Below are positions 42,281-56,707 of a stretch of DNA of 64,000 nt, piece by piece. The position numbers and the translations under genes were made by a program. Location: positions 248,001 to 312,000 of the IMG/VR virus record IMGVR_UViG_3300027834_000005. The stretch is one strand, 5' to 3'. The stretch comes from a virus. Numbering within the stretch: position 1 is the first letter of the stretch; each line of letters starts with the position of its first letter. The notes beneath the pieces are model-generated. The model worked only from the letters and a program-made list of their open reading frames with translations, was not told the origin of the DNA and made no database searches.

Positions 42281-42749
42281 TGGACAAATAGATCAAGAAC
42301 AAGCGTACTGCATGGCTATAAATATTTACCACGAAGCTAGATCCGAATCTATTGCAGGTCAGATAGAAGTAGCTCACGCTACTATGGAACGTGTTAGGGA
42401 TAAAAGATTCCCTAGTACTATATGCGGAGTGGTATTACAAACGAACCGTGATTCTTTGGGTAGACCAAAGTTATATCGCTGTTCGTTTTCTTGGTTTTGC
42501 GATGGCAAGCCAGATGATATTGAATTTGTTAAGAAAGGCAAGTTCATGATCATAGATTACAGAAACTTTATGACGGCGTCTATGGTGGCGTTGAGAGTAA
42601 TAAACGGTGACTATAAAAGCGAGTGCGAAGGTGCTAACTTTTATTATAATCCTACTTTAGCTTCACCTCGGTGGGCTAAACACTACACATTAAAATGCAG
42701 GATAGGAAATCATGCATTTCACAGACGAGAGAAAGGAAGTCTTTTATGA
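42216..42749 (+). CDS. SleB/CwlJ-type cell wall hydrolase (putative endolysin)
   Basis: A 177-aa hydrolase. INIYHEARSESIAGQIEVAHATMERVRD (catalytic-type E in YHEAR), CSFSWFCDGK, and NFYYNPTLASPRWAKHY with the final GNHAFHR match the SleB/CwlJ family that degrades peptidoglycan. Starting at 42216 (GAAGG ten bases upstream) gives a Lys plus a hydrophobic stretch (ALLMHLMMLFSL), possibly a secretion or SAR-like signal; a start at 42261 would remove it. The only clear lysis enzyme in the window. Confidence 0.85.
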   Translation: MVSLPTAKALLMHLMMLFSLNDGQIDQEQAYCMAINIYHEARSESIAGQIEVAHATMERVRDKRFPSTICGVVLQTNRDSLGRPKLYRCSFSWFCDGKPDDIEFVKKGKFMIIDYRNFMTASMVALRVINGDYKSECEGANFYYNPTLASPRWAKHYTLKCRIGNHAFHRREKGSLL

Positions 42750-43594
42750 AGAATTATCTTGAATTATTGCAAGATATTAAGGACAATGGAGTTGTCAAAG
42801 GAAGTAGATCAGGTAAAACCACATCCGTATTTGGCAGATCCCTTAGATGGGATCTTTCAGAAGGATTCCCCGCATTAACTACTAGAAGAGTACCCCTACG
42901 TTTCGCTTTTGAGGAAACATGGTTCTTCCTTAGTGGTAGCACAGACACTACCATCTTAGCAGACAAAAACATTCCCATTTGGGAAGGAAACACCACGCGT
43001 GAGTTTTTAGATGATAAAGGCCTTACTGATTTGCCAGTTGGCAGCTTAGGAACAGGCTATTCTCATCAGTGGAGAAACTTTGGTGGCGCTATAGGCGGTG
43101 ATGACGGCATAGACCAGATCACAGAGCTTGTAGAAGGCCTTAAGAACGATCCTAACTCAAGAAGGCACATTGTGTCGGGTTGGAATCCAAAGCAGTTAGA
43201 CGGCACTCCACTGCCTCCATGTCACGTATATAATCAATACTATATTGCAGAAGGCAAATTGCACTCCACATTCATGATGAGAAGCACAGACGTTCCGTTT
43301 GGTCTCCCATTTAATATGATGGGCTATGCACTTCTTAACATGGCGATTGCTAAGCTATTAGGATTGGAAGCTGGTGACTTGGTTTACTTCGGTAATGACG
43401 TTCATATCTATGAAGAGCAGATGCCTATGGTGGATGAGATGTTACAGCGCACACCTGACGCCATGCCTACTCTAATAATCAAAAAAGATCTGAAAACGAT
43501 TGACGATTTGCTGTCTATGGAGTATAATGATATTGAGCTGAAGGACTATGCGCCACAGCCAGATATAAAAAATAAGCCAAAGATGGCGGTGTAA
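42746..43594 (+). CDS. td: Thymidylate synthase (ThyA type)
   Basis: A 282-aa enzyme converting dUMP to dTMP with methylene-tetrahydrofolate. Motifs: GYSHQWRNFGG, SRRHIVSGWNPKQLD, PPCHVYNQYYIA (catalytic C159) and VPFGLPFNMMGYALL; YFGNDVHIYEEQ near the C-terminus. The ATG at 42746 follows GAAAGGAAG. Works with DHFR at 47649. Confidence 0.96.
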   Translation: MKNYLELLQDIKDNGVVKGSRSGKTTSVFGRSLRWDLSEGFPALTTRRVPLRFAFEETWFFLSGSTDTTILADKNIPIWEGNTTREFLDDKGLTDLPVGSLGTGYSHQWRNFGGAIGGDDGIDQITELVEGLKNDPNSRRHIVSGWNPKQLDGTPLPPCHVYNQYYIAEGKLHSTFMMRSTDVPFGLPFNMMGYALLNMAIAKLLGLEAGDLVYFGNDVHIYEEQMPMVDEMLQRTPDAMPTLIIKKDLKTIDDLLSMEYNDIELKDYAPQPDIKNKPKMAV

Positions 43595-43595
43595 T

Positions 43596-44024
43596 ATGGA
43601 AATTTCTAGGACGTTAGAGGAGCAACTCAGTTATTTAGAGATGGCTCTTTTCAATGGAGTATTCAGTGAAGATAAGCTTGCGGATCATTTGCAATGTGTG
43701 ATGCAAGATAAACTGGCAGGGCATGACCCTATGGCATATGATTCAGCTACGTGTAAACAGTTGAACCTAAATAAATATAGCGACCTGACAGATTACAGTA
43801 CCGTTTATCCAGCTAGGCATAGTATTTTTACTGAGATGGCTAATGAGATAACTATTCTGGTTAAACGTAATGAAGTATTAGAAGCCGAAGTAAAAACGTT
43901 ATGCGAAGACCGTACTAGACATGATAATAGATTACGTAATCTTGAAGATAAAGTGAATGTTTTAGTACAAACGCACAACGCTAAAGCAGAACATGAATCT
44001 GCTATACAGACGAGGATTTATTAA
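43596..44024 (+). CDS. Hypothetical coiled-coil protein
   Basis: A 142-aa protein with a predicted coiled coil in its C-terminal half (ILVKRNEVLEAEVKTLCEDR, NRLRNLEDKVNVLVQTHN). Between thyA and clpX, overlapping clpX by one base. Unknown; co-expression makes it worth testing as a Clp-related factor. Confidence 0.65.
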   Translation: MEISRTLEEQLSYLEMALFNGVFSEDKLADHLQCVMQDKLAGHDPMAYDSATCKQLNLNKYSDLTDYSTVYPARHSIFTEMANEITILVKRNEVLEAEVKTLCEDRTRHDNRLRNLEDKVNVLVQTHNAKAEHESAIQTRIY

Positions 44025-45238
44025 TGAGTGAATTATGTACTTTTTGTGGTAAAGGAAAAGGCGAGGTTGATTTACTTATATCAGGACCGTTAGACTCTGA
44101 AGGTGTACCATCAGCCTACATTTGTAGTGAATGTACTGGTGTCGCTGAAGAGTTCGTATTAGAAATGAAAGCGGATGAGGCTGCACTTGATAAAGTTGAG
44201 TGTACCAAGTCCATTTTGTATCCTAATGATATTAAGAATCAATTAGATGAGTACGTGGTTGGTCAAAATAGCGCTAAAGAAAAGTTATCAGTGGCGATAT
44301 TCAATCATAAGAAAAGAATTGCCATGGTTAATCGTGGTGAGGACACAGTGGAAAAGTCAAATATTCTAATGGTAGGACCATCAGGTAGTGGTAAGACGTT
44401 ATTATTGAAGACTATTACTAAGATTGCTGACGTTCCGTGCATTGTCGCTAACAGCACCTCTCTCACTGAGGCAGGTTATGTAGGGCAAGACGTAGAAAGT
44501 ATCTTTGAGGACCTTCTTATGGCCGCTGACGGCGATATAGATAAGGCACAGCAAGGTATTGTGTTCTTAGATGAGATTGATAAGAAAGCTAAGGCAAAAA
44601 CAGGCGGTAGTGGTAGGGATATCTCAGGCGAAGGCGTACAGCAAGCTTTATTGAAGCTAGTTGAGGGCACAGAGCTTATGATCAACCCTAATCCGAAGAA
44701 TAAGCAACCATTAACGTTGGTTCCATTCAACACTAAGGACATTTTGTTCATAGCTGGTGGTGCATTCGTTGGGTTGGATGATATAGCTAAGAAAAGAGAT
44801 GCTGGCACGACCATGGGTCTATCTGCAACTCTTACTAATAGTGATGAGGCCACAGTGCCTAAGATATCATCTGAAGATTTGAGTAAGTATGGTCTTATAC
44901 GGGAATTCATTGGTAGATTCCCTATCATGGTAACTCTGCAACCACTAAGCGTGGATATGCTGAAAAGAATTATCGTGGAACCTAAGAATAGCATATTCTC
45001 TCAATTTAAAGACTTGTTTGCGGTTGAAGAAATAGAATTGGTATTCACAGAAGAATACCTAGAGTACTTGGCTTCAAAAGCCATAGAGCACAAGACTGGG
45101 GCCAGAGGCCTTAGAAGAAGTCTTGAAGAAGATCTTAGTGGCGTACAGTTCGATCTTAAAAAACATAAAAATGATAATGTCATACGTGTAGTCGTTGGAG
45201 ACAAAGGTATCATTACATTAGAAAAGGAAGATACATGA
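44024..45238 (+). CDS. clpX: ATP-dependent unfoldase ClpX
   Basis: A 404-aa full-length AAA+ ClpX. Zinc-binding domain C5/C8/C34/C37; Walker A GPSGSGKT (118-125); pore loop GYVG (151-154); Walker B IVFLDEID (179-186); arginine-finger region REFIGR (293-298); sensor-2 GARGLRRS. Two functional loops differ from E. coli: the ClpP-docking IGF loop reads MGL (264-266), and the substrate-selecting RKH loop is replaced near PKNKQP (224-229). It probably unfolds selected proteins for a matching protease. Overlaps bS21 by 4 bp. Confidence 0.95.
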   Translation: MSELCTFCGKGKGEVDLLISGPLDSEGVPSAYICSECTGVAEEFVLEMKADEAALDKVECTKSILYPNDIKNQLDEYVVGQNSAKEKLSVAIFNHKKRIAMVNRGEDTVEKSNILMVGPSGSGKTLLLKTITKIADVPCIVANSTSLTEAGYVGQDVESIFEDLLMAADGDIDKAQQGIVFLDEIDKKAKAKTGGSGRDISGEGVQQALLKLVEGTELMINPNPKNKQPLTLVPFNTKDILFIAGGAFVGLDDIAKKRDAGTTMGLSATLTNSDEATVPKISSEDLSKYGLIREFIGRFPIMVTLQPLSVDMLKRIIVEPKNSIFSQFKDLFAVEEIELVFTEEYLEYLASKAIEHKTGARGLRRSLEEDLSGVQFDLKKHKNDNVIRVVVGDKGIITLEKEDT

Positions 45239-45471
45239 AAGGTCCAGTAAGGATAGAAGGTCTTGCGGTAGAAGTTAAAGGTAACTTCGAACGCGCATTA
45301 AGGATGTTCAGTAAAAAAGTACAAAGCTCAGGACTCATTCGTGAGTTGAGAGAAAGAGAGCACTACGAGAAGAAGACGTCTAAGCGAAAGAAAGATAAGG
45401 CAGCTGCAAGTCGTAGAGAGCAAAAGCGCGTCAGAGATAATAGCCCTGAAGCACAACACAGAAAAAGATAA
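45235..45471 (+). CDS. rpsU: Ribosomal protein bS21
   Basis: A 78-aa homolog of small-subunit protein bS21 (E. coli 71 aa). VEVKGNFERALRMFSKKVQ and SSGLIRELREREHYEKKT followed by the basic KRKKDKAAASRREQKRVRD tail align with the whole family. bS21 sits near the anti-Shine-Dalgarno end of 16S rRNA and aids initiation. The gene is translationally coupled to clpX (ATGA). It could replace host bS21 on ribosomes during infection. Confidence 0.9.
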   Translation: MKGPVRIEGLAVEVKGNFERALRMFSKKVQSSGLIRELREREHYEKKTSKRKKDKAAASRREQKRVRDNSPEAQHRKR

Positions 45472-45474
45472 ATA
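45467..45474 (+). promoter_or_regulatory. Late-type promoter box at the end of the bS21 gene
   Basis: GATAAATACTATT, same extended form as 23486. It overlaps the bS21 stop codon; predicted start near 45480, upstream of clpS. Confidence 0.55.
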
Positions 45475-45515
45475 CTATTATCAGTTGTTTTTTTGATCTT
45501 ATTTGTAAATAAAGC

Positions 45516-45544
45516 TTCCCTTAACGGGGAAAGTTTGTTACAAT
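45516..45544 (+). promoter_or_regulatory. Possible sigma70-type promoter for clpS
   Basis: TTCCCT, 17-bp spacer, TACAAT followed by AGCGC (as in other -10 regions here). The -35 is poor and overlaps a TTCCC/GGGAA inverted repeat (about 45516-45531), which may be a weak terminator instead. Confidence 0.4.
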
Positions 45545-45583
45545 AGCGCAAAATTAATATACTGATGGTAGGAGATACCGACA

Positions 45584-45889
45584 ATGAGCACACAAACATG
45601 CGAAGACACTATGGTTTTGGAAGAAGTTCAGATTAAGGAACCTTCCACGTATCAAGTAGTTTTCTTGAACGACGATAAAACCCACATTGAATTTGTGGTG
45701 GATGTATTAGCTTCAGTATTTCACAAAACATTAGTGGATGCGGAAATGGTTACCTTACAGATTCATCATACTGGGCGTGGCATTGCCGGTGTATACAGTG
45801 AGGAAATTGCCGAGACTAAGCAAGAAGAGACTACGAAATTGGCTCGCGCCAATGGATTCCCTCTTCAAGTTGTGGTTGAGGAAGTGTAA
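45584..45889 (+). CDS. clpS: Clp protease adaptor ClpS
   Basis: A 101-aa N-degron adaptor. YQVVFLNDDKTHIEFVVDVL, VTLQIHHTGRGIAGVYSEEI and AETKQEE/LARANGFPL align with ClpS. The binding-pocket residues N29-D30-D31 and H62 are conserved; the specificity gate (Met in E. coli) is Ile35. In bacteria ClpS feeds N-terminal Leu/Phe/Tyr/Trp substrates to ClpA, not ClpX, and no clpA is in this window. The ribosome site is AGGAG. Host ClpAP is the likely partner. Confidence 0.92.
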   Translation: MSTQTCEDTMVLEEVQIKEPSTYQVVFLNDDKTHIEFVVDVLASVFHKTLVDAEMVTLQIHHTGRGIAGVYSEEIAETKQEETTKLARANGFPLQVVVEEV

Positions 45890-46161
45890 TGAATAACTTT
45901 TTCATGATTTCAACATTATGTTTGTGTTTTGGATTGGCCTCCTTACTTATGGGTAGGGAAATAGGCCATAAAGAATCACGAATAGATGCTGATGCTGTGG
46001 TAAGTGTTTCTAAACTGACAATAGTGAAGATGCATTATGCATGTGGCGGAAGCCAATACGTTAATGAATTCAATTTTGACGTCAATACACTTACGGGTGA
46101 TTTCGGAACAGTCACTGTAATATGCAGAGACGGTACGGAAATTTCTTTGATAGACGAATAG
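45889..46161 (+). CDS. Hypothetical membrane-anchored or secreted protein
   Basis: A 90-aa protein with an N-terminal hydrophobic helix (MNNFFMISTLCLCFGLASLL) and a soluble, beta-rich remainder containing two later cysteines. Overlaps clpS by one base. Unknown. Confidence 0.6.
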   Translation: MNNFFMISTLCLCFGLASLLMGREIGHKESRIDADAVVSVSKLTIVKMHYACGGSQYVNEFNFDVNTLTGDFGTVTVICRDGTEISLIDE

Positions 46162-46227
46162 TACCGTAAAATATACCGTCATTATACGTGACGTACGATG
46201 GTGGTAATTATGTACAAGGAGTGTACC

Positions 46228-46506
46228 ATGAGAACCAGAGAACATTGGAAAGAATGCTTAAGTGATGAGCCGTATATTATGGCCCAGACAGTAGTTCTAG
46301 AGTTAAAAGACATTGCTAAAAACTCAGGATATGATCCTAGAGGAGTTAAGGTCCATAGTAAAGAAGAAGCTATGAGGCGTAACATCGGACGCGTTGGTGC
46401 ATTCATAACGTGGAATGAAGGTCCCATTGGTTGGACTGATTTCTGTGATTTGCCCTTCGAGTTTTGTGATGTGTATGAAGGTTCCATGCTAATATTTTAT
46501 GATTGA
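46228..46506 (+). CDS. Hypothetical protein
   Basis: A 92-aa protein, start at 46228 (MRTREHWKECLSDE) with AAGGAG. Tryptophan-rich C-terminal half (TWNEGPIGWTDFCDLP). Overlaps the next gene by 8 bp. Unknown. Confidence 0.6.
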   Translation: MRTREHWKECLSDEPYIMAQTVVLELKDIAKNSGYDPRGVKVHSKEEAMRRNIGRVGAFITWNEGPIGWTDFCDLPFEFCDVYEGSMLIFYD

Positions 46507-46804
46507 TTTAAAAGAGGTCGGCGTTAAATACGTCGCCACAGATAAGAAAGGAAAGAAAATAACCTTCCAGATCATTTATTACGACAGTTTAATTGAGATG
46601 GTAGGTTTGAACGATTGTAACGTATACGATCTTGATGATTACCGAAAGAACGTGTACGATGCAGTGAAGGGATTCGTAGATAGCCCGTATGATATTACGT
46701 GGTATTCAGTGCCAAGCTACGAAAGTAACCTAGTTGATGCCGTAAAGGAGGCAATAACTACAGGCAACCATACCATAGTCATAGAATACACAGATATAGA
46801 TTGA
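46499..46804 (+). CDS. Hypothetical protein
   Basis: A 101-aa acidic alpha/beta protein (VGVKYVATDKKGKKITFQII). No motif recognised. The next promoter region starts at its stop codon. Confidence 0.6.
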   Translation: MIDLKEVGVKYVATDKKGKKITFQIIYYDSLIEMVGLNDCNVYDLDDYRKNVYDAVKGFVDSPYDITWYSVPSYESNLVDAVKEAITTGNHTIVIEYTDID

Positions 46805-46831
46805 GAAAACATGTTGAAAACATGTTATAAT
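46801..46831 (+). promoter_or_regulatory. Promoter with duplicated 11-bp operator-like element
   Basis: TATAAT at 46826-46831; the best -35, TTGAGA (46801-46806), has a 19-bp spacer. The spacer is two exact copies of GAAAACATGTT (46805-46815 and 46816-46826), each holding the palindrome AACATGTT, one helical turn apart. It looks like tandem sites for a regulator covering the promoter. Confidence 0.6.
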
Positions 46832-46862
46832 TGATTCAGATTATCCATTAACAGAGGTATAT

Positions 46863-47096
46863 ATGACGACTCCCCAACATAACACAGGTCCTATCCCACC
46901 AGCCACAGAATGTGAGTGGCCGGTGTCGATAGACGAGCGTGGCATAGTTTTCTGCCATAGCAAGCAAATTAAATCTGGATCAAGTTACTGCGCTGAACAC
47001 CATTCAGAAGCCTATTACTCTCCATCTAACCAAGATGATATCGACTTAGCAGAAGTTGACACAAACACTGTTGAGATCGATCCACTGAGAGAATAG
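46863..47096 (+). CDS. GcrA-like zinc-ribbon protein
   Basis: A 77-aa protein. CEWPVSIDERG with FCHSKQIKSGSSYCAEHHSEAY matches the C-terminal Cys/His motif (C-W-P ... F-C ... Y-C-x-x-H) of GcrA-type cell-cycle regulators. GcrA itself recruits sigma70 RNA polymerase at methylated sites in alphaproteobacteria. The N-terminal DNA-binding domain of GcrA is missing, so this may be a stand-alone RNA-polymerase-binding module. Confidence 0.6.
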   Translation: MTTPQHNTGPIPPATECEWPVSIDERGIVFCHSKQIKSGSSYCAEHHSEAYYSPSNQDDIDLAEVDTNTVEIDPLRE

Positions 47097-47378
47097 ATGA
47101 CGTATCATGTAACTGGGTTGGTGTCGGAGCCGACGTTATTTTTCTCCGATGATGGCGTTTCATTGTTTACAGATCCAAACGAGAAGTGGTTTATTAGTGA
47201 AGTATTAGATCGTTTGGTATCAAAGGACACAAAAAAAGTGTATTCGGTGGAACTATTTGGTAAGAACGCCAATATAAATCCTGGTCTACGGCGCATGGAA
47301 CTATCTGTGCGACTTCAAGAGATTGATGATAGTGGAGCAGATAGTATTGACGATAAGGTTTTGGTGTATAGCAAATGA
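47097..47378 (+). CDS. Hypothetical protein
   Basis: A 93-aa protein starting directly after the previous stop. Mixed alpha/beta (WFISEVLDRLVSKDTKKVYSV). No recognised domain. Confidence 0.6.
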   Translation: MTYHVTGLVSEPTLFFSDDGVSLFTDPNEKWFISEVLDRLVSKDTKKVYSVELFGKNANINPGLRRMELSVRLQEIDDSGADSIDDKVLVYSK

Positions 47379-47665
47379 TTGATGTGGCCTACGTATTTAT
47401 ATCACAGTTTTTTATGATTTTATTAGTGGGCCTCAATCAATTAAATGTGGTTCACAACCATATTTATATGGCAATGACGACATCACTGCTCATCAGTGTG
47501 TGTAGCTTTTATAACGTCAACGCCATATCACAGACAGAGGCATACTCACCTACATGGTTTGCTTTTATAATTGCCGGTGGTATAGCTATTGGGGCATCTA
47601 TGAAATTGCATCCTATAATGGTTAGAGCATTTAACAAGGCAGATAAAAATGACACAGATACTTGA
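47375..47665 (+). CDS. Small integral membrane protein
   Basis: A 96-aa protein with about three hydrophobic segments (residues ~5-25, 32-50, 60-78). A holin-like role is conceivable given a lysin elsewhere, but it lies between takeover genes far from the lysin. Overlaps its neighbours. Confidence 0.6.
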   Translation: MIDVAYVFISQFFMILLVGLNQLNVVHNHIYMAMTTSLLISVCSFYNVNAISQTEAYSPTWFAFIIAGGIAIGASMKLHPIMVRAFNKADKNDTDT

Positions 47666-48155
47666 GAATTTATCCCTTATCGCGGCGACTACGCAAGATG
47701 GCGGTATAGGGTCAGAAAATAGATTACCATGGAAATGTCCAGAAGACATGAAATTCTTTAAAGAATTCACCACTGGTAAATCAGTTATTATGGGACATAA
47801 CACGTTTGAGTCCATTGGTAGCAGAGCGCTACCTAACAGAGACAACTATGTTGTCACACGTCATGCTAATAGCACGCATGGTAGTTTGAGGTTTATGAAC
47901 TTTGATAGCATCCTTGAATTAGTTAAACTCCACAGCGATAAAGAATTTATCGTGATAGGTGGAGAAAAAACATACGCTGCTTTTATGAAACACATCAGTA
48001 AGGCATATATAACTACGATCAAAGATTCGTGCGTATATAAAGATATGGAAATAGATACGTTCTTGCCATCGTTATCGGAGTCATTCTTTTTGCAAGGTGT
48101 ACTCCGTTCCCATGACACTTGCGTTATTAGAAAATGGAGAACACCGAGAACTTAA
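47649..48155 (+). CDS. frd: Dihydrofolate reductase
   Basis: A 168-aa DHFR regenerating tetrahydrofolate used by ThyA. Motifs: LIAATTQDGGIGSENRLPWKCPEDMKFFK, GKSVIMGHNTFESIGSRALPNR and EFIVIGGEKTY. Overlaps the membrane protein gene by 17 bp. Length (~160-170 aa) matches the family. Confidence 0.95.
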   Translation: MTQILENLSLIAATTQDGGIGSENRLPWKCPEDMKFFKEFTTGKSVIMGHNTFESIGSRALPNRDNYVVTRHANSTHGSLRFMNFDSILELVKLHSDKEFIVIGGEKTYAAFMKHISKAYITTIKDSCVYKDMEIDTFLPSLSESFFLQGVLRSHDTCVIRKWRTPRT

Positions 48156-48157
48156 CA

Positions 48158-48400
48158 ATGAATACTTACACTCACATATATAACATCGTTGGTAAGCCTA
48201 CATGTACAGTAACTGTACATGAAGATTGCGCAGGCATGCATACATTTGCATCTAGCTCTCTAAAAAAATCGTCAAATAACCTAGCTAGTCCGAATATATT
48301 GGAGTTGTTAGTGTGGGTTAGCGAAAGAAAGAATGCTGAGTTGGAACTAAAGGAGTCAACGCGTAATGAAGGTGAGATTGAAGGAAAGTTCAAAGTTTGA
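48158..48400 (+). CDS. Hypothetical protein
   Basis: An 80-aa protein, start at 48158 (MNTYTHIYNIV), two bases after the DHFR stop. Contains a perfect 21-bp palindrome at 48201-48221. No recognised domain. Overlaps the next gene by 35 bp. Confidence 0.55.
   Translation: MNTYTHIYNIVGKPTCTVTVHEDCAGMHTFASSSLKKSSNNLASPNILELLVWVSERKNAELELKESTRNEGEIEGKFKV
48201..48221. repeat. Perfect 21-bp palindrome inside a coding region
   Basis: Arms CATGTACAGT and ACTGTACATG around a central A. Perfect 10-bp arms in 64 kb are unlikely by chance; may be a protein-binding site or strong RNA hairpin. Confidence 0.7.
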
Positions 48401-49022
48401 TGATCTCCAAAGTATAAAAAGACGTTACTATGGTTACTTGGACGACACTAATATAAGGGCGCTGGCTTTTATGTTAACTGTCCCTATTGCCATTAGTCAT
48501 TTCATTAGATATTGCTTGCATAAATTTAAGTTTAGTGATAAAATAGTCATAGAGTCAAACGACGTGAAGAATGCCGATATAACAATGGCTAAAATTATAG
48601 TGCCATTATTGGAAAGGTTAAATGTTGAGAAGCAAGGTGTGCCTCCAGTTGATGACATGGACGTACCGGATGCTATTATGGATATAGGCGTTAAGTTCCA
48701 TGGTATAGACGTGTCTCGTAGCTTTAAGTGGGAATATGTCATGACTAGGATGATTATATCATTCAAGTACGTGTCTAATGAGTTAGCCGTAACATCCTGC
48801 GAGGAAGGTCTAGGAGACATTAGAATACCTGATGTTCTTAAGATACACACTGAGTTGATTCATGAAGAGATGGACACATTAAAGTCTCTTGAAGAAACAC
48901 ACGGCAAGATTAAGATGGAAGACTACTATGAGTTCATGGAAGTGGACCCGAACAATATTGAAAGGGTAGTCCAAGAAGGTCTTGATTTATTCTCCAAATA
49001 TTACTTGAGGTTATGGACATAA
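48366..49022 (+). CDS. Hypothetical protein
   Basis: A 218-aa protein with one hydrophobic stretch (IRALAFMLTVPIAISHFIRY) near residues 30-50 and a helical, acidic C-terminus. AAGGAG lies nine bases upstream of the ATG. Possibly membrane-associated; family not recognised. Confidence 0.6.
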   Translation: MKVRLKESSKFDDLQSIKRRYYGYLDDTNIRALAFMLTVPIAISHFIRYCLHKFKFSDKIVIESNDVKNADITMAKIIVPLLERLNVEKQGVPPVDDMDVPDAIMDIGVKFHGIDVSRSFKWEYVMTRMIISFKYVSNELAVTSCEEGLGDIRIPDVLKIHTELIHEEMDTLKSLEETHGKIKMEDYYEFMEVDPNNIERVVQEGLDLFSKYYLRLWT

Positions 49023-49285
49023 TGTACATTAACGATGAAGACAAAAAAGATACAGCAAACAGCACACTAGGTATATACTACATGGGCGTATTACTTATTT
49101 TATTGCTCGCAGTATGTGGGTATCAGCGCTATATGTTAGATGATATGGGATATGGCAATAAGGAATACTCTGAGGTTAGAGAACTATGCGTGGAAGCGCA
49201 CAAGGAAGGTATCGGATGTAAAGTTGGCTTTGGCCCTTACGCCGAGTTTGAGCAAATGGAGTACACCAAGGAAGATGAGCGATAA
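49013..49285 (+). CDS. Single-pass membrane protein
   Basis: A 90-aa protein with one TM segment (YYMGVLLILLLAVCGYQ). The short N-terminus is probably cytosolic, the rest acidic. The ATG at 49022 is an alternative start. Overlaps phosphatase copy 2 by 11 bp. Confidence 0.6.
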   Translation: MDIMYINDEDKKDTANSTLGIYYMGVLLILLLAVCGYQRYMLDDMGYGNKEYSEVRELCVEAHKEGIGCKVGFGPYAEFEQMEYTKEDER

Positions 49286-50099
49286 TATACACTTTTTACA
49301 GATCATGGAGCCTAATGTAGAAGGGAAAGACTTCGTTGTTGGGGACATCCATGGTCATTTCAGAAAACTTGATAATAAGTTGGAAGAAATAGGTTTTAAT
49401 TTCGAACAAGATAGGCTATTCGTAGTGGGTGACTTGATCGATAGAGGTCCGTACTCTCATGAGTGCTTAGATTATCTTAAAAAAGACTGGTTCTATTCCA
49501 TAAAAGGAAACCATGAAGAGTTTCTAGTTAGAGGAGTAGACTTTATGTTACGCGGCTGCCCTGCTGATGATATGACTGGTATCATATCATATAATACATG
49601 GATGGGTAACGGCGGAAGATGGTTCGAAGACTTAAAAACCGTGCACGGTGAAGACCTTGGAGTTAAAGAGCTTAAAGAATACATGGTCGCATTAGACGCA
49701 TTACCGTATTTCATGGAAATTCCGGTACAAGTCGATGGCACTATGAAGAAAGTTGCAATGGTACATGCTGAAATCAACGATACCTATGACTGGAACGACG
49801 TAGTGTCGGTGTCGAATGGTTTAGAAGTCGAATGTACTGATGCTAGTAGACTCATGCGAGACGCTGCTTGGAGCAGATCACGCATAGAGAGATGTGGAAC
49901 CTCAGTTATGTATGGTAAGGATCACTCTTGTGAAACTATGCTTAATATAGACGCTGTGTTCTGCGGACACACACCCATCATTGAGTATACAGATACTGCG
50001 CCGTTTACTATAGGTAATATTCACTATATAGACACGTGGGTATATGGGCAGATAGATAATAATTTTCAGATAATTGATCTGAAGGATTTTTTATCTTGA
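49275..50099 (+). CDS. Serine/threonine metallophosphatase (copy 2, PPP family)
   Basis: A 274-aa PPP enzyme with canonical GDIHGHF, GDLIDRGPY, GNHEEFLV and late GHTPI and HAEI motifs. Length and motifs resemble lambda-type protein phosphatases. Start at 49275 with AAGGAAG. More conserved than copy 1 (intact GDxxDRG). The final bases overlap the next promoter. Confidence 0.92.
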   Translation: MSDNIHFLQIMEPNVEGKDFVVGDIHGHFRKLDNKLEEIGFNFEQDRLFVVGDLIDRGPYSHECLDYLKKDWFYSIKGNHEEFLVRGVDFMLRGCPADDMTGIISYNTWMGNGGRWFEDLKTVHGEDLGVKELKEYMVALDALPYFMEIPVQVDGTMKKVAMVHAEINDTYDWNDVVSVSNGLEVECTDASRLMRDAAWSRSRIERCGTSVMYGKDHSCETMLNIDAVFCGHTPIIEYTDTAPFTIGNIHYIDTWVYGQIDNNFQIIDLKDFLS

Positions 50100-50124
50100 C
50101 TTGACTCATGAATGATGGTAAAAT
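50096..50124 (+). promoter_or_regulatory. Sigma70-type promoter
   Basis: TTGACT, 17-bp spacer, TAAAAT; predicted start near 50131. Followed by a ~85-nt leader ending in a terminator before the next gene. Confidence 0.75.
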
Positions 50125-50130
50125 ACACAC

Positions 50131-50217
50131 ATGATAAGGCAATTGGTGAGCCAGTTAATCAACACCACATTAGACTGATAATAAAATACCTTTTTGGGCA
50201 CTACGGTGCCCTTTTTT
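50131..50217 (+). ncRNA. Candidate ~87-nt leader/small RNA
   Basis: The stretch from the predicted start to the terminator (50196-50217) has no good ribosome site and no clear ORF. It is either a small RNA or an attenuator leader for the downstream SLOG gene. No known RNA family recognised. Confidence 0.4.
50196..50217 (+). terminator. Terminator upstream of the SLOG-type gene
   Basis: GGGCAC/GTGCCC stem, TACG loop, six T residues. It lies directly before, not after, the coding gene that its promoter faces. Confidence 0.9.
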
Positions 50218-50225
50218 ATGGACAT

Positions 50226-50570
50226 ATGAAGACAATAATAGCCGGTAGTAGAGACAACGTAGGACCAGAACATTTATTTGAGGCATTTGACATAATAGAT
50301 TATGAAATTACTCAAGTGATATGCGGATGCGCCAGAGGTGCAGACACAATAGGTAAGGCATGGGCCGACCTAGAAGGCATACCATGCTTAGAAATGCCTG
50401 CGGACTGGGATCTACACGGAAAGAAAGCTGGATCTATTCGTAATGAAGAGATGGCGTTAGAAGCAGAAGCTCTCATCGCGTTGTGGGACGGAGTAAGCAC
50501 CGGCACGGCTAACATGATAAACATAGCAGAACGTCTTGGGCTTCATGTCACTGTGATATACACACAATAA
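50226..50570 (+). CDS. DUF2493/SLOG-type nucleotide-binding protein
   Basis: A 114-aa Rossmann-like protein. MKTIIAGSRD, VICGCARGADTIGKAWA and MPADWDLHGKKAGSIRNEEM match the YspA/DUF2493 family of the SLOG superfamily, which is often linked to nucleotide-derived signalling or DNA metabolism. A three-codon ORF (ATG at 50218) ends on its start codon, so translation may be coupled. Located behind an attenuator-like terminator. Confidence 0.85.
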   Translation: MKTIIAGSRDNVGPEHLFEAFDIIDYEITQVICGCARGADTIGKAWADLEGIPCLEMPADWDLHGKKAGSIRNEEMALEAEALIALWDGVSTGTANMINIAERLGLHVTVIYTQ

Positions 50571-50573
50571 TAT

Positions 50574-50602
50574 TTGACAACAACTTTAAAATAGAATAGT
50601 AT
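50574..50602 (+). promoter_or_regulatory. Sigma70-type promoter
   Basis: TTGACA, 17-bp spacer, TAGTAT; then CGGAG before the ATG at 50626. Confidence 0.75.
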
Positions 50603-50625
50603 TATGCTTCTTAACGGAGAATACT

Positions 50626-51861
50626 ATGTTAGCTTTTTTATTAATACTTATCCCATTCGCAGCATTCTTGATTGCGAAATTATGTTTTAACCACAAATTT
50701 AACTTCCAAGAGGTCGTGATCGGTATCATCATATGTGCTGCTTCTGCGATAGCCGTTCTTGAAGTATCTAAAAATGGCAAAATGGCTGACAGAGAGATCT
50801 GGAACGGCAAAGTTACCTCCAAACAACCAGAGAAACGCAATTGTCCCGTACCAGACTACGATGGCTGGACAGATGAGTACTCATCCTTCTGTAGTGCCCA
50901 TGATGATGAAGAGCGTATTGTTGGGTATGAGACAGTATGTGACTCTTATAATGATAGCGGCAGCTGCACAAGCTCACATGAAGAGCCAATCTATGAAACG
51001 TACTACCGTTATTACTTTAGATACGAACAGCGTTGGTATGTAAACTCCAATCTGGTTAGCTGGGAAGAACCACGCGTAGGCGGACGTTATAAGCAAGGTC
51101 TAAAAGAGCCTAAGAGCTGGACTATTGTCAAGATTAACGACCCTGTGAGTGTCACTAGGCCATATGACAACTACGTCAGAGCCGTACCAGAGAGCTTATT
51201 CAATAATAAGGAAGTAAAGAACGCACATAGCGCTAGTGTTCCGGCATACCCAACAGTTCACGGCAGATATAAAGTGAATCGTGTACTATCGGTGGGATAT
51301 AAAGGTAATATCGACAAAAATAAGCTAAATTATGAGCTTGGTAAGGCATTAGGGCGATTAAACCCTGCAAAACAGGTAAATGTCATCGTTATCCTAACTA
51401 GTATAGGTGATATGTCATTCCGACATGCCGTAGAGAACAAATGGCTTGGTGGTAAGAAAAACGACGCTATTATCTTCATTAGTTTAGACACTAACGGTGA
51501 TATATTGTGGACAGACCTAATGACATTCGGAAAAAATAAGTTTAATGGTATATATACTGCTAATTTAACTGGCGCAATCAGTGATATGGAAAATATTACT
51601 AAAGATAATCAAGGTGAGCTGGTAGGCACTATAGAGAACTTAACTGCCAAGCATTATGATCGACCTGCAATGAAAGAATACTTTTATTTAGTGAAGCATA
51701 TACAACCTTCTACCGGAGCGCTTATATTTGCATTCATATTAGACATTCTTATTTGCGTAGGGTTGTTATGGGCATTCAATAAGTACGACTTTGATCCGAT
51801 AGGCAACTCATACAGACACATTAAGTGGAAATTTAATAGACGTAGAAGATTTAGAAGATAA
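50626..51861 (+). CDS. Membrane protein with TPM-like domain
   Basis: A 411-aa protein with two N-terminal hydrophobic helices (~1-20 and 28-46), a cysteine-bearing extracytoplasmic region, a TPM-like domain (NVIVILTSIGDMSFRHAVEN, KNDAIIFISLDTNGDI) and a C-terminal TM helix (ALIFAFILDILICVGLLW) followed by an Arg-rich tail. TPM domains (YgcG-like) often accompany LemA proteins, and a LemA-like gene lies just downstream. Function in phage unknown; perhaps envelope remodelling or defence against superinfection. Confidence 0.6.
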   Translation: MLAFLLILIPFAAFLIAKLCFNHKFNFQEVVIGIIICAASAIAVLEVSKNGKMADREIWNGKVTSKQPEKRNCPVPDYDGWTDEYSSFCSAHDDEERIVGYETVCDSYNDSGSCTSSHEEPIYETYYRYYFRYEQRWYVNSNLVSWEEPRVGGRYKQGLKEPKSWTIVKINDPVSVTRPYDNYVRAVPESLFNNKEVKNAHSASVPAYPTVHGRYKVNRVLSVGYKGNIDKNKLNYELGKALGRLNPAKQVNVIVILTSIGDMSFRHAVENKWLGGKKNDAIIFISLDTNGDILWTDLMTFGKNKFNGIYTANLTGAISDMENITKDNQGELVGTIENLTAKHYDRPAMKEYFYLVKHIQPSTGALIFAFILDILICVGLLWAFNKYDFDPIGNSYRHIKWKFNRRRRFRR

Positions 51862-51874
51862 ACGGAGAAGGGAA

Positions 51875-52042
51875 ATGGAAATTATTTTAGCGATAATCGT
51901 ATTAAACGGAGCATTCTCAAAAACTATTGAGTATGATATGTCTAGTCTCGCCGAGTGTGAGAGTCACAAGGAAGAGTTAGTGGAGCGATTACGCAAAGAT
52001 AACTTCGTACTTTCTGCAAAATGCAAAATAGAAGGAAAATAG
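51875..52042 (+). CDS. Small secreted or membrane peptide
   Basis: A 55-aa protein (MEIILAIIVLNGAFSKTIEY) with a hydrophobic N-terminus resembling a signal sequence; the C-terminal half is charged with two Cys. GGAGAAGGGA precedes the ATG. It lies between the TPM and LemA-like genes. Confidence 0.6.
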   Translation: MEIILAIIVLNGAFSKTIEYDMSSLAECESHKEELVERLRKDNFVLSAKCKIEGK

Positions 52043-52043
52043 G

Positions 52044-52436
52044 ATGTCAAAAATATTAAGACTAAGTGAATGGATTAAAGGCCGTAAGAATAAAACCGAA
52101 ACTACACCTGCAAAGTATGCGAAAGGTGAAGAGAAGCCGGAGCCGGTGCAGGAACCGGAGTATTATTCAGCTATACATATACAACTGAAGAATAATAGAA
52201 CTCTAAACTTGGAGTTAAAAGTTGCGAAACCTGATGGTAAGTTTGGTGTTAGAGAGGCATGGTTGGATTTCATCAAATGGTATCACTGTAGAGAGTCATC
52301 TGAGGTATACACTTTTAAATATAGAGACGATACGTGTTGGACGTATCGATGCATAAAGAAATCAAACATTGAAGAGTACACCATTACTTCTAAAGAAATC
52401 AAACATTCGAAGAGTGCATCATTATTTCCAAAGTAA
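52044..52436 (+). CDS. Hypothetical protein
   Basis: A 130-aa protein with a basic N-terminus (LSEWIKGRKNKTE), a Pro/Glu linker and a globular C-terminus (YYSAIHIQLKNNRTLNLEL). Immediately after the 55-aa gene. No motif recognised. Confidence 0.6.
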   Translation: MSKILRLSEWIKGRKNKTETTPAKYAKGEEKPEPVQEPEYYSAIHIQLKNNRTLNLELKVAKPDGKFGVREAWLDFIKWYHCRESSEVYTFKYRDDTCWTYRCIKKSNIEEYTITSKEIKHSKSASLFPK

Positions 52437-52464
52437 AGAAAAGATGGGCTTTTAGATAAAAGTG

Positions 52465-52493
52465 TTGACGGTAAGTGTAAAAGATTATATAGT
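52465..52493 (+). promoter_or_regulatory. Sigma70-type promoter
   Basis: TTGACG, 17-bp spacer, TATAGT; CGGAG precedes the ATG at 52529. Confidence 0.75.
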
Positions 52494-52528
52494 GAACTCA
52501 TCAAATACATATCCCAACGGAGAAACAC

Positions 52529-53107
52529 ATGAAGCAATCAACAAAAACAACGCTAGCTATCGTAGTAACAGTATTGGTCTTAGTATTAGGTCCTATCATT
52601 GCATTTGGCGTAGCGTATATCGGGCATAAAGATACTGCAGTGGCAACTGAAGAAGGTATTGTAGGTCAATACAAGGCGGACGAGAACACATTGGCCCAGA
52701 TGTCATTGAAAGTAGTGGAAATGATGCAGGTAGCTAACTCACATACCGATGATATGGTGAAGTTAATTTCCGCAGCTATGAAAGGTAAGTATGGTGATGA
52801 CGGAGCAACGGCTAAGATGTTATGGTCGAATGAATCTACGCAGACTATTGATCCTTCTCTGAAGAAAGAAGTAATGCGTGCCATTAAAGGCGGACGTACT
52901 AACTTCGAGCAGATGCAGAATAACAGAATTGACATGTGTCGAGCGTATAAGACGACATTAAGACAGACAGTTAGTGGTTTCTTCTTATCACTGGCTAAGT
53001 TCCCCGAAATTGACTTGGCAACGTACTGTGAAATTGTAAGTTCATCTCATGCTCGTGAAGCTTTCGAGACGAAGATTGACAAAGGTTTAGATCTTAAGAA
53101 CCTATAG
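52529..53107 (+). CDS. LemA-like membrane protein
   Basis: A 192-aa protein with an N-terminal TM helix (AIVVTVLVLVLGPIIAFGVAY), then EEGIVGQYKADENTLAQMSLKVVEM and a long helical domain ending in LATYCEI, consistent with LemA (N-out helical bundle). LemA/TPM gene pairs are common in bacteria, and a TPM-like gene is 0.7 kb upstream. Function of the family is poorly known. A terminator follows. Confidence 0.65.
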   Translation: MKQSTKTTLAIVVTVLVLVLGPIIAFGVAYIGHKDTAVATEEGIVGQYKADENTLAQMSLKVVEMMQVANSHTDDMVKLISAAMKGKYGDDGATAKMLWSNESTQTIDPSLKKEVMRAIKGGRTNFEQMQNNRIDMCRAYKTTLRQTVSGFFLSLAKFPEIDLATYCEIVSSSHAREAFETKIDKGLDLKNL

Positions 53108-53124
53108 CACTTACTTTATGAACA

Positions 53125-53147
53125 AAAACCGCCTAGTGCGGTTTTTT
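53125..53147 (+). terminator. Rho-independent terminator
   Basis: AAAACCGC/GCGGTTTT stem with CTAGT loop and T-tract; closes the LemA-like unit. Confidence 0.9.
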
Positions 53148-53163
53148 ACGTGGAGAACAAAGA

Positions 53164-53658
53164 ATGAGATCTATAATCGTACTGTCCACATGGTGGGGCG
53201 GTAAAAAAATAGAAATGAAATGTAAATCGGTAGATATGGTTGGTATTGATGCGGATTACGTAGCCGCAGGATTACAGATTGATGTTGAAAATGATGGAAA
53301 AATGAGACATGGGAAAACTTTCGTACTGAAGGTGAGAAATATCGAAGAGGTAGATGGTGAGAACATAGACGACTTCGAGAATACATTACGAGGCCTGAAA
53401 AAATACGCCATGGTCTTGCATTCATTCAGGTCATATGAGAAAGAAGATTTCATTTGTAAGGAAGTGTATGCCAAAGACGATAGAGATGCTGAAAATCAGA
53501 CGTCGTATTGGTTAATAAATGAGGAATACGATAGCGGATGCTGGGTTGAAATAGAAACCAATGAAACTATAACCAAAAAACCGGAACGTATTCACCAGAC
53601 ATCTAAAAGTTATGTTCCTTGTTGGTGGTGCAAGCTTAAATCCTTTATATTTGGATAA
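53164..53658 (+). CDS. Hypothetical protein
   Basis: A 164-aa protein with a C-terminal CWWCKLKSFIFG motif (CxxC). TGGAG precedes the ATG at 53164. Read-through past the terminator or an unseen promoter would drive it. Unknown function. Confidence 0.6.
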   Translation: MRSIIVLSTWWGGKKIEMKCKSVDMVGIDADYVAAGLQIDVENDGKMRHGKTFVLKVRNIEEVDGENIDDFENTLRGLKKYAMVLHSFRSYEKEDFICKEVYAKDDRDAENQTSYWLINEEYDSGCWVEIETNETITKKPERIHQTSKSYVPCWWCKLKSFIFG

Positions 53659-53661
53659 GTC

Positions 53662-53690
53662 TTTACAAAAAAGTCGTGGTGTGGTAAAAT
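53662..53690 (+). promoter_or_regulatory. Sigma70-type promoter
   Basis: TTTACA, 17-bp spacer, TAAAAT followed by ACGC. Confidence 0.7.
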
Positions 53691-53724
53691 ACGCACCATA
53701 AAACATACCTAGAGCTTATTTATT

Positions 53725-53889
53725 ATGGAAGAAGACGTTATTGCAGAGTTAGAACGACATAAAAAGTTCATAGCTGGAATGTATGAAATATTATCTGCCG
53801 AAGGATACTTCGGTATAGCTACTCAGTGCGAAGAGCTTACTGAGAGCACAGAAAACTTAATTGAAAGACTAAAAAATGATAAACTTTGA
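53725..53889 (+). CDS. Small acidic helical protein
   Basis: A 54-aa protein (MEEDVIAELERHKKF, then CEELTESTENLIERLKN). It overlaps the exonuclease-like gene by 14 bp and follows a good promoter. Ribosome site is weak. Function unknown. Confidence 0.5.
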   Translation: MEEDVIAELERHKKFIAGMYEILSAEGYFGIATQCEELTESTENLIERLKNDKL

Positions 53890-54622
53890 TAATGTAACAA
53901 TAGTTAATACCGAAACAACTGGACTTGACTTCAAACAAGACCAAGTCATAGCATTATGCGTAGGATATAAGTCATCCACTGGTAAGTGGGATAATATGAC
54001 ATCTTATTGTAAAGCTGATGTTCCTATTACGCCAGAAATTTCATACCTACATGACATTACTGAAAGTATGTTAGGCGATAAGAGACTTCATGAGTTAGAT
54101 GGCGTTATACCTGACGTGAATGAATACGTTGTAATGTGTAATTCAACTTTTCATGCAGGCATGATTAACGGTAATGGCAGTAAAATGTTATCCGGTAAAA
54201 AATTGATATGCGTTAGTAGAATAAGTAAGAAGCTTGATGCGTTAGGTTTGGGCATGACTAATTATAAATTGCCATACTTGAATCATTTCTTCGGGGCGAA
54301 CATAAAAAGAAATGATTATGAAACCGACACTGCTATGCATAACGCCATCATAGGTAAAGTGTTCGAGAAGCAAGTAGAAATGATGAAGGCTTTAGGGCAG
54401 ATTCATGAATATAATCTTGAAGAGATCTATGAGTGGTTAGAAGCGCCTATTATATATGAAAATATGACGTTTGGTAAACATGTCGGTAAGCCTATGGTAG
54501 AAATACCTATTACTTACTGGACGTGGGCCTTAAGCAACATGGATTCATTGCAGGAAGATGGCGATAAGTACGATTCTGACTTAGCTGCCTCTGTGGCTGC
54601 CGCTTTAGATAAGATTCTATAG
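53876..54622 (+). CDS. DEDD-type exonuclease homolog, catalytically degenerate
   Basis: A 248-aa protein of DnaQ/ExoX type: motif I reads VNTETTGLD (N11 in place of Asp), motif II CNSTFHAG (H93 where Asp is expected), motif III TDTAMHNAIIG (no Asp at the usual distance after H155). A C-terminal MTFGKHVGKPMVEIPITYWTWAL matches the ExoX/DUF3820-like domain that binds DNA or partners. Three of four catalytic acids are missing, so nuclease activity is doubtful; it may bind DNA or decoy a host factor. Confidence 0.8.
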   Translation: MINFDNVTIVNTETTGLDFKQDQVIALCVGYKSSTGKWDNMTSYCKADVPITPEISYLHDITESMLGDKRLHELDGVIPDVNEYVVMCNSTFHAGMINGNGSKMLSGKKLICVSRISKKLDALGLGMTNYKLPYLNHFFGANIKRNDYETDTAMHNAIIGKVFEKQVEMMKALGQIHEYNLEEIYEWLEAPIIYENMTFGKHVGKPMVEIPITYWTWALSNMDSLQEDGDKYDSDLAASVAAALDKIL

Positions 54623-54961
54623 CGGAGTAGGAACATCTGGGGTATCTTGGACGAAATAGTCAGGGTCGAATCGTTGGTATTTGTCATGTGGCATACCAGC
54701 ATTAGCTTTAGCCTCTTCTCTTCCTCGATATCCAGCAGATTGCATATCACCTACGACTGGAGTAGAGGTCCAATCCTCTTCTTCGTTATCAACATCATCC
54801 GTGACTACGGGCGTGCCCCCTTTATTATCTTTGGCTTTCTTTTTAGCCTTAGATTCCTCTTCTTCTTTATAAGAAGATGATTCAGGGTTCAACTCAGCAT
54901 CCAATTCATTGGTGGCTGAAAAGTATTTGTCGTTTGTCTCGAAAAGTTCTATAAGTCTCAT
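54617..54961 (-). CDS. Putative capsid-targeted internal protein (minus strand)
   Basis: A 114-aa acidic protein starting MRLIELFE, then TNDKYFSA; the leader fits the capsid-targeting pattern with an L-F-E cut site. The middle is Lys/Glu-rich (EEEESKAKKKAKDNKGG) and the tail Asp/Pro-rich. GATAAATA lies five bases before the ATG, so the message would be leaderless. It converges on the exonuclease-like gene with a 6-bp overlap. A lone late gene in an early region. Confidence 0.6.
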   Translation of the reverse strand: MRLIELFETNDKYFSATNELDAELNPESSSYKEEEESKAKKKAKDNKGGTPVVTDDVDNEEEDWTSTPVVGDMQSAGYRGREEAKANAGMPHDKYQRFDPDYFVQDTPDVPTPL

Positions 54962-54966
54962 GCTAT

Positions 54967-54974
54967 TATTTATC
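54967..54974 (-). promoter_or_regulatory. Late-type promoter box GATAAATA (minus strand)
   Basis: GATAAATA, then ATAGC, then ATG on the minus strand; divergent from the sigma70-type promoter at 54982. Confidence 0.7.
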
Positions 54975-54981
54975 AAAAACA

Positions 54982-55010
54982 TTGACCTTATGTGGTCTTT
55001 GTAGTATAAT
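54982..55010 (+). promoter_or_regulatory. Sigma70-type promoter
   Basis: TTGACC, 17-bp spacer, TATAAT followed by ACACGC; AAAGGAG lies before the ATG at 55034. Confidence 0.8.
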
Positions 55011-55033
55011 ACACGCATTAAAGGAGAGCCACA

Positions 55034-55240
55034 ATGAAGAAAGATTATAAAATCAGTGACATCAGCCAAATAACCCGATATAATGGGTTCACTGAGATGC
55101 TCTTGCAAGAAGATTACAAGAAATTCAAAGAAGGTCAGTACTCTAGTGCCGTGTATGTTGCAGAACAAAAGCAGTTCTATGTGTATGGCGAGTTAACCTT
55201 CGAAAAAGTTAACGTAGATGAGAATCCATTCAATGATTAA
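55034..55240 (+). CDS. Hypothetical small protein
   Basis: A 68-aa protein (MKKDYKISDISQITRYNGF) with a strong promoter and AAAGGAG. Overlaps the next gene by 8 bp. Unknown. Confidence 0.65.
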   Translation: MKKDYKISDISQITRYNGFTEMLLQEDYKKFKEGQYSSAVYVAEQKQFYVYGELTFEKVNVDENPFND

Positions 55241-55520
55241 CGTAAACGGCATTGTAACCAACACAGACGCTATCGCTATAGACCCTTTGGAAGTATTTGT
55301 GCTCCTAACTATTAAAGCTTTAGTAGTAATCGACACTGAAAAGTTCGATGGTGCAGATAGTGTCGGTCTGGATATGAAAACAGACGAAGTTGTAGTTATT
55401 AAAGGTACAGGCGTTACACGTTATGGGCCTGATGATTTTGAATGTGAGTCTTATGATCGCATTGCCAACTTGTTAATCGGTAAACTTGAATTTTTAGAAG
55501 TAGCAAAAAATATTAGATGA
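55233..55520 (+). CDS. Hypothetical protein
   Basis: A 95-aa protein starting MINVNGIVTNTDAIA. A hydrophobic stretch (PLEVFVLLTIKALVVID) may be a buried helix. Ends just before the clpP promoter. Unknown. Confidence 0.55.
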   Translation: MINVNGIVTNTDAIAIDPLEVFVLLTIKALVVIDTEKFDGADSVGLDMKTDEVVVIKGTGVTRYGPDDFECESYDRIANLLIGKLEFLEVAKNIR

Positions 55521-55525
55521 TTATG

Positions 55526-55554
55526 TTGACACCAATATAAAAATCGAATAGAAT
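55526..55554 (+). promoter_or_regulatory. Sigma70-type promoter for clpP
   Basis: TTGACA, 17-bp spacer, TAGAAT; predicted start near 55561, ~31-nt leader to the clpP ATG. Gives clpP host-type expression. Confidence 0.8.
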
Positions 55555-55591
55555 TACAACTCAATACTTTCACTGACAAAAGAGAAAAAAC

Positions 55592-56236
55592 ATGAATACT
55601 CCATTATCTAGCTTAGTACCTATGGTCGTTGAACAAACCCCTAACGGCGAACGCTCTTACGATATCTTCTCACGTTTACTTAAAGAACGTATCATCTACG
55701 TAAGTGGTGAAGTCCATGACGGTATGGCTGATATTGTTACTGCGCAAATGATGTTCCTTGAAGCGGAAAATCCTGAAAGCGATATCAATATGTACATCAA
55801 TTCTCCTGGTGGTTCTGTTACTGCTGGCTTAGCCATCTATAACACCGCTCAATTTATCGAATGTGACGTGAAAACTATCGTTACTGGTCAAGCAGCATCA
55901 ATGGGTAGCTTCTTAGCTCAATCAGGTACTGCCGGTAAGCGTTTTGTAATGGGCGAATCACGTACTATGATCCATCGTGTTAGTGCCGGTACAGCCAACA
56001 CACAAGGTTCTATCCACGTTATGCGTGAAGAGTTGGAAGATATCAAACGTTCGGTTGAAGAAGGTGAGCGTTTGAACGAACGTTTGACTCAACTGTATGT
56101 TCAGCATAACTCTGTGGGTAAAACTTACGAAGAATTGTTCGAAACCATGCGTTACGACACGTTCTTATCAGCAGAAGATGCTGTTAAAGGCGGATTCGCT
56201 GACCGTGTAATCAGATCACGTGCCGACTTAACCTAA
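55592..56236 (+). CDS. clpP: ATP-dependent Clp protease proteolytic subunit ClpP
   Basis: A 214-aa ClpP with the catalytic triad S103 ([11 protein letters not shown]), H128 (MIHRVSAG) and D189 ([12 protein letters not shown]). [30 protein letters not shown] and [24 protein letters not shown] match the family closely; the N-terminal propeptide is a few residues. It should form a 14-mer degrading proteins fed by ClpX or host ClpA/ClpX. clpX and clpS lie ~10 kb upstream. Confidence 0.96.
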
Positions 56237-56296: not shown

Positions 56297-56707
56297 ATGA
56301 AAGACCAGAATATTTTAAAGAACTACACACATTTTGTTGACACACTTACTAGTGATGAAAGCACTAAATTTGAATCCTATATCGCACGTTTGACTCAATT
56401 GAATGAGCAAGGCTGTGATATTGCTAGATTGGACACAGCATCTCAAGGTATGTCGGCGGAAGCAGGCGAATTTGAAGAAGTTGTTAAGAAAATCAAGTAT
56501 CAGGGTAAAGAATACAACGAAGATAATATTTTCCACATGCAACGCGAGTTGGGTGATATCATTTTCTATTGGATCAACGCGTGTATGGCGTTAGATATCG
56601 ATCCGATCAAAGTTATAGAGATGAATGTCGAAAAGCTGGAAAGCAGATACCCAAGTGGATCATTCGACGTACATTTCAGTGAGAACAGGAAGGACGGTGA
56701 CGTGTGA
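56297..56707 (+). CDS. mazG: MazG-like nucleotide pyrophosphohydrolase
   Basis: A 136-aa protein. SAEAGEFEEVVKKIKYQGK (E-x-x-E-x-x-E) and RELGDIIFYWINACMALD (E-x-x-D) are the MazG metal-binding motifs. MazG proteins hydrolyse non-canonical or excess NTPs or alarmones; phage versions are common. GGAAG precedes the ATG. Follows clpP by 60 bp. Confidence 0.85.
   Translation: MKDQNILKNYTHFVDTLTSDESTKFESYIARLTQLNEQGCDIARLDTASQGMSAEAGEFEEVVKKIKYQGKEYNEDNIFHMQRELGDIIFYWINACMALDIDPIKVIEMNVEKLESRYPSGSFDVHFSENRKDGDV

Follow-up and report, generated by a model that had tools for sequence, protein, structure and literature searches.

Clp genes of a PA5oct-like phage

We analysed a stretch of 64,000 bases, referred to here as the window (G000:C1:248001-312000), of a 347,232-base virus record (G000:C1; IMG/VR record IMGVR_UViG_3300027834_000005), in which the original prediction had reported a full-length ClpX, a ClpS and a ClpP. 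All three were found as open reading frames (ORFs) with clear matches to their families, and clpA was identified in the same record outside the window. Most feature positions are given in window coordinates, and those preceded by G000:C1 are record positions.

44024..45238, + strand: ClpX unfoldase, 404 amino acids (NCBIfam match, motifs)
45584..45889, + strand: ClpS N-degron adaptor, 101 amino acids (Pfam match, PDB relatives, motif residues)
55592..56236, + strand: ClpP peptidase, 214 amino acids (Pfam match, PDB relatives, catalytic triad)
G000:C1:337398-339620 (record positions, outside the window), directly after the DnaJ gene: ClpA, 740 amino acids (Clp_N and two AAA domains)

The unfoldases for which ClpS acts as an adaptor are ClpA and ClpC, and it is not known to serve ClpX. 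The three-part set originally described was correct for ClpX, ClpS and ClpP but incomplete, the partner of ClpS, ClpA, having been overlooked; with ClpA in the same record, the set amounts to ClpAPS plus ClpXP rather than three orphan parts. When the entire record was searched by family, exactly two proteins exceeded the AAA_2 cut-off, namely ClpX and the 740-residue ClpA. In addition to Clp_N, the latter has two AAA modules and two Walker A/B pairs, its docking loop reads IGF, and its best model, TIGR02639, scores 825 bits, which is under the 993-bit equivalog cut-off of that model. The clpA gene lies 33 kb downstream of clpP.

Judging by its capsid, portal and sheath proteins and its gene order rather than by formal taxonomy, the phage is an Arenbergviridae-like relative of Pseudomonas phage vB_PaeM_PA5oct (PA5oct, Arenbergviridae). 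PA5oct is matched by 131 ORFs of the record in largely colinear order, with protein identities of 82% for the major capsid protein (MCP), 60% for the portal and 51% for the sheath; the corresponding values for the Clp proteins are 42% (ClpX), 41% (ClpS), 57% (ClpP) and 51% (ClpA).

Catalytic, ATPase and docking residues are retained

The catalytic and ATPase residues, which had been described as looking intact, were indeed all found among the recognizable motifs of ClpX and ClpP. ClpX scores above the curated NCBIfam cut-offs (429 bits for PRK05342, cut-off 359; 393 bits for TIGR00382, cut-off 371), and its nearest solved structures are genuine ClpX chains. It retains the C4 zinc finger (Cys 5/8/34/37), Walker A (118), Walker B (179), the GYVG pore-1 loop (151), the arginine finger in EFIGRF (294) and the sensor-2 motif GARGLR (359). 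The ClpP-docking tripeptide is MGL (residues 264-266), which fits the pattern [LIVM]-G-[FL] that is kept in nearly all phages compared; bacterial forms are IGF, LGF, VGF and MGF, and PA5oct has MGF. None of the other sequences compared carries MGL.

ClpP matches its Pfam family with E = 1.5 × 10−57 (195 bits), its closest structures are housekeeping ClpPs (PDB E values of ~10−54 to 10−56), and its catalytic triad is S103/H128/D189, exactly as first reported. That this protein is instead a prohead or head-maturation protease, with no part in regulated degradation, is suggested by PHROGs matches that include head maturation proteases and by an ‘ESI-MS/MS’ note borne by the PA5oct ClpP record. 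However, although ClpP scores under the curated NCBIfam cut-offs, it fits housekeeping ClpP far better than the ClpP-related head protease (232 vs. 88 bits), it keeps the docking pocket region and the N-terminus, the capsid genes are not adjacent, and some huge phages additionally encode a separate, weaker ClpP-like protein, so that we regard this explanation as very improbable.

The handle that joins the two ClpP rings, measured as the number of residues from the catalytic His to the catalytic Asp, is 50 or 51 residues long in the 34 bacterial ClpPs and falls into two types in phages: 52 residues (Atu_ph07, Phosso and many ClpX-linked contigs) or 62 residues (the present phage, PA5oct and all 37 close relatives). 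The insert of the 62-residue type lies in this handle, and phage ClpPs of this type have His-Arg where the sampled bacteria have His-Gln. By its position, the insert could keep phage and host ClpP rings apart. A special match between ClpX and the ClpP pocket was also considered and is unsupported, as the pocket positions Y60, I90, M92, F112 and L189 vary among bacterial ClpPs too.

ClpS matches its Pfam family with E = 1.4 × 10−27 and has ClpS relatives in PDB at ~10−16 to 10−17. Its amine-binding residues N29/D30/D31 and H61 are present, as are E74 and K79, which align to E79 and K84 of Escherichia coli ClpS, residues that we take to be contacts with ClpA. Among 51 distinct phage ClpS sequences, N34, D35 and H66 (E. 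coli numbering) are kept in 50-51, E79 in 51 and K84 in 48. Such conserved docking residues are compatible with bacterial partners as well, and phage ClpS and ClpX might mainly dock on host ClpA and ClpP and redirect them, leaving phage ClpA and ClpP a secondary role; for jumbo phages with a ClpS of their own, a role of this protein in delivery to host ClpAP has been proposed (PMC7824862). Against this stands the fact that every partner is supplied by the phage, and that many of the large contigs examined encode ClpS alongside phage ClpA and ClpP. We consider reliance on the host partners improbable.

Substrate-choosing residues are changed

In ClpX, T199, R228 and H230 (E. coli numbering) contact the ssrA degron, and the R228A mutation of E. 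coli ClpX raises the KM for ssrA substrates at least 50-fold and confers N-degron specificity (PMC7652416). These three positions are invariant in 29 bacterial ClpX sequences, whereas they are G, N and Q in the present ClpX and G, S and F in that of PA5oct, such that both T199 and the RKH loop are lost in the two phages. All 39 bacterial ClpX sequences have an intact RKH loop, compared to 18 of 53 distinct phage sequences (Fisher p ~3 × 10−12, ignoring kinship), with at least 3 changes of the loop on the ClpX tree. From these substitutions, the present ClpX is predicted not to accept ssrA-tagged host proteins. Viral ClpX loci with an intact RKH loop often have no canonical ClpP in the contig and those without the loop usually have one, an association confounded by kinship and incomplete contigs.

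In ClpS, the hydrophobic pocket differs from that of E. coli at the gate, where Met40 is replaced by Ile35, and at Met62, which is replaced by Thr57; both pocket positions vary among the 51 phage ClpS sequences, and PA5oct retains Met at the gate. Met40 has been described as a gatekeeper against beta-branched residues (PMC12493166), and the altered pocket is predicted to take a different set of N-terminal residues. A different change is seen in ClpS of Agrobacterium phage Atu_ph07 (L119:3808-4110), in which Glu stands in place of the amine-binding His, kept in the present phage, and Asp in place of the Asn; this protein may have lost N-degron binding of the usual type.

In these alignments, the ClpP-docking and ClpA-docking residues are thus kept, whereas the substrate-selecting residues of ClpX and ClpS are changed. 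The same holds in comparison to E. coli ClpXP and ClpAPS, which the phage proteins resemble in the catalytic and ATPase residues, the docking loops and the amine-binding residues of ClpS, and from which they differ in the residues of ClpX and ClpS that choose substrates and in a ClpP handle that is 12 residues longer (62 vs. 50). This contrast between assembly residues and substrate-choosing residues is what the present analysis adds and the part worth pursuing.

Origin of the phage Clp genes and a reading of the residue pattern

In trees of ClpX, ClpA, ClpP and ClpS, all phage sequences, which had been retrieved through their similarity to those of the present phage, fall on one side of a branch and the sampled bacteria on the other. 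In the careful version of the ClpX tree, the branch between phages and bacteria has a support of 99/92, with one change in 99% of the bootstrap trees; in quick trees, support for the split is modest (0.64 for ClpP and 0.76 for ClpA). Recent capture from a host and bacterial contamination were rejected on the basis of this split together with the PA5oct-colinear backbone around the genes. As far as the trees and the gene order indicate, the Clp genes are long resident in huge phages and were inherited with the PA5oct (Arenbergviridae) backbone.

The pattern of kept and changed residues agrees best with redirected proteolysis, as originally suggested, and the reading that we favour, with moderate confidence, is a phage-resident, self-sufficient Clp machine with a changed choice of substrates. 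One ClpP barrel would be served by both ClpX and ClpA, making a two-armed ATP-dependent protease encoded by the phage, and ClpS would pass N-degron proteins to the phage ClpA; no phage L/F-transferase was found as a source of N-degrons. During infection, phage-specific ClpXP and ClpAPS would probably form and degrade an altered list of proteins; candidate targets are regulators or defence proteins of the host, or phage proteins that are damaged or have failed to assemble. The assembly, activity, targets and benefit of such a machine are all aspects that we infer.

Several observations weigh against this reading. The changed substrate residues could reflect relaxed constraint, and the branch of the present ClpX is long and groups with that of PA5oct, which is also long. 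The trees sample bacteria narrowly, with Pseudomonadota, Campylobacterota and spirochaetes making up most of them. In the ClpP handle, the AlphaFold model is of low quality (pLDDT of 31-36 around the insert). Residue 40 varies in bacterial ClpS too (Met in 57 of 75 and Lys in 15), which makes the ClpS half of the retargeting argument weaker than the ClpX half.

More tentatively, and with doubt slightly outweighing belief, the favoured reading may be extended to huge phages at large: these would carry an old, parallel Clp machine in which the assembly contacts are frozen, while the ClpX pore-2 and RKH loops and the ClpS pocket have been repeatedly rewritten, resulting in a naturally retargeted protease that skips ssrA-tagged host proteins in favour of a list chosen by the phage.

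Gene neighbourhoods and chaperones

The following genes neighbour the Clp genes within the window:

42695..43594, + strand: thymidylate synthase, preceding clpX as it does in PA5oct
45235..45471, + strand: homologue of ribosomal protein bS21 (rpS21), which begins within the last 4 bases of clpX (overlap of 14 bases in PA5oct)
56297..56707, + strand: MazG-like nucleotide pyrophosphohydrolase, downstream of clpP and near clpP in PA5oct too
61963..62343, + strand: GroES/Cpn10-like protein (matched weakly in Pfam; in synteny with the ‘chaperonin’ of PA5oct)

The present phage shares with PA5oct the gene order thymidylate synthase, clpX, bS21, clpS, clpP, mazG, dnaJ and clpA. An Hsp20 gene between bS21 and clpS, as found in PA5oct, was looked for at this place and is absent. 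The two phages further differ in the size of the record (347 kb vs. 287 kb) and in the distance between clpA and clpP, which is greater in the present phage.

Across 29 distinct ClpX lineages, bS21, Hsp20 and ClpS genes lie within a few kilobases downstream of the ClpX gene on the same strand in most cases. The order clpX, bS21, hsp20, clpS recurs in diverse huge phages (L012-L091), one large group of which has clpP upstream of clpX at a distance of ~3 kb. An earlier survey had already reported that phage bS21 genes have Hsp20 and two Clp families in their vicinity (PMC9723584). The dnaJ and clpA genes, of which dnaJ is immediately upstream in the present phage, also adjoin in PA5oct and Atu_ph07 and are separated only by a peptide deformylase gene in Sinorhizobium phage Phosso; DnaJ is found near ClpA in 72 of 80 viral ClpA loci.

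These neighbourhoods bear on the main rival explanation, namely general protein quality control, in which additional Clp proteins of the ordinary kind would join DnaJ, a GroES-like protein and an FtsH-like protease in sustaining a long, protein-rich infection. It accords with the presence of DnaJ, the Cpn10-like protein and an M41 FtsH-like protease in the same genome, as well as with the fact that, in many huge phages, clp genes are neighbours of bS21 and hsp20 (for bS21 neighbourhoods, see PMC9723584). However, plain extra capacity leaves unexplained why residues that recognize ssrA, invariant in the sampled bacteria, have been lost, and we consider this explanation unlikely compared to a self-sufficient Clp machine with altered substrate choice. 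The FtsH-like protein, of 663 residues, is encoded at G000:C1:22975-24966 (L097:2975-4966), contains AAA and M41 peptidase domains, and is weakly similar to the FtsH of PA5oct.

Distribution of the four-gene set

The original prediction had regarded the trio with ClpS as unusual and had named its routine presence in the phage clade as the finding that would speak against this view. Co-occurrence in phage genomes shows that the trio is routine in the clade: ClpX, ClpS, ClpP and ClpA are encoded together in 11 of 11 PA5oct-like records, in Atu_ph07, which was described in 2018 with ClpX, ClpA, ClpB, ClpS and Clp protease subunits (PMC6102473), in Phosso, and, among the IMG/VR records retrieved, in at least 8 further uncultivated huge phage records (G009, G016, G020, G021, G029, G033, G034 and G035), where the calls required matches to canonical ClpP, ClpX-length AAA_2, ClpA-length AAA_2 and ClpS. 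Several other contigs have ClpA, ClpS and ClpP without ClpX. The four-gene Clp set is therefore already known from related giant phages and is not unusual among PA5oct-like phages.

The closest known set is that of PA5oct and its relatives in the Arenbergviridae (MIJ3, Paride, Callisto, Ettore, Cassandra, Deifobo and PAC2). Atu_ph07 and Phosso resemble the present phage in having all four of these Clp proteins and dnaJ next to or near clpA, but differ in that clpX is located beside the genes for IF-3 and topoisomerase, that clpS is further from clpX, and that ClpX has RKN where the RKH loop of the present phage is lost, in addition to the shorter ClpP handle.

A phrase search of a collection of open-access papers found no experimental study of phage-encoded Clp genes, although these are annotated in many huge phages. 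As the clade includes P. aeruginosa phages that can be cultured in the laboratory (PA5oct and Paride, the latter of which replicates on dormant cells; PMC10761892), the question of which substrates phage Clp proteins act on is directly testable. The residue pattern yields sharp predictions and may provide new specificities for programmable degradation tools.

‘Acinetobacter phage MD-2021a’ was considered as a further carrier of the set and rejected, because its contigs hold argC, tig and aroF and are hence bacterial; it was used as a bacterial control. These contigs (CAKLQF020000005 and CAKLQF020000008; L124 and L125) are filed in the phage collection under that name and contain housekeeping genes. 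ClpX and ClpP genes are also present in short or unannotated contigs named for phages of Staphylococcus, Listeria, Enterococcus and Escherichia (OR844xxx-OR849xxx, e.g., H19-H21 and H26-H28), which may represent host or mixed DNA.

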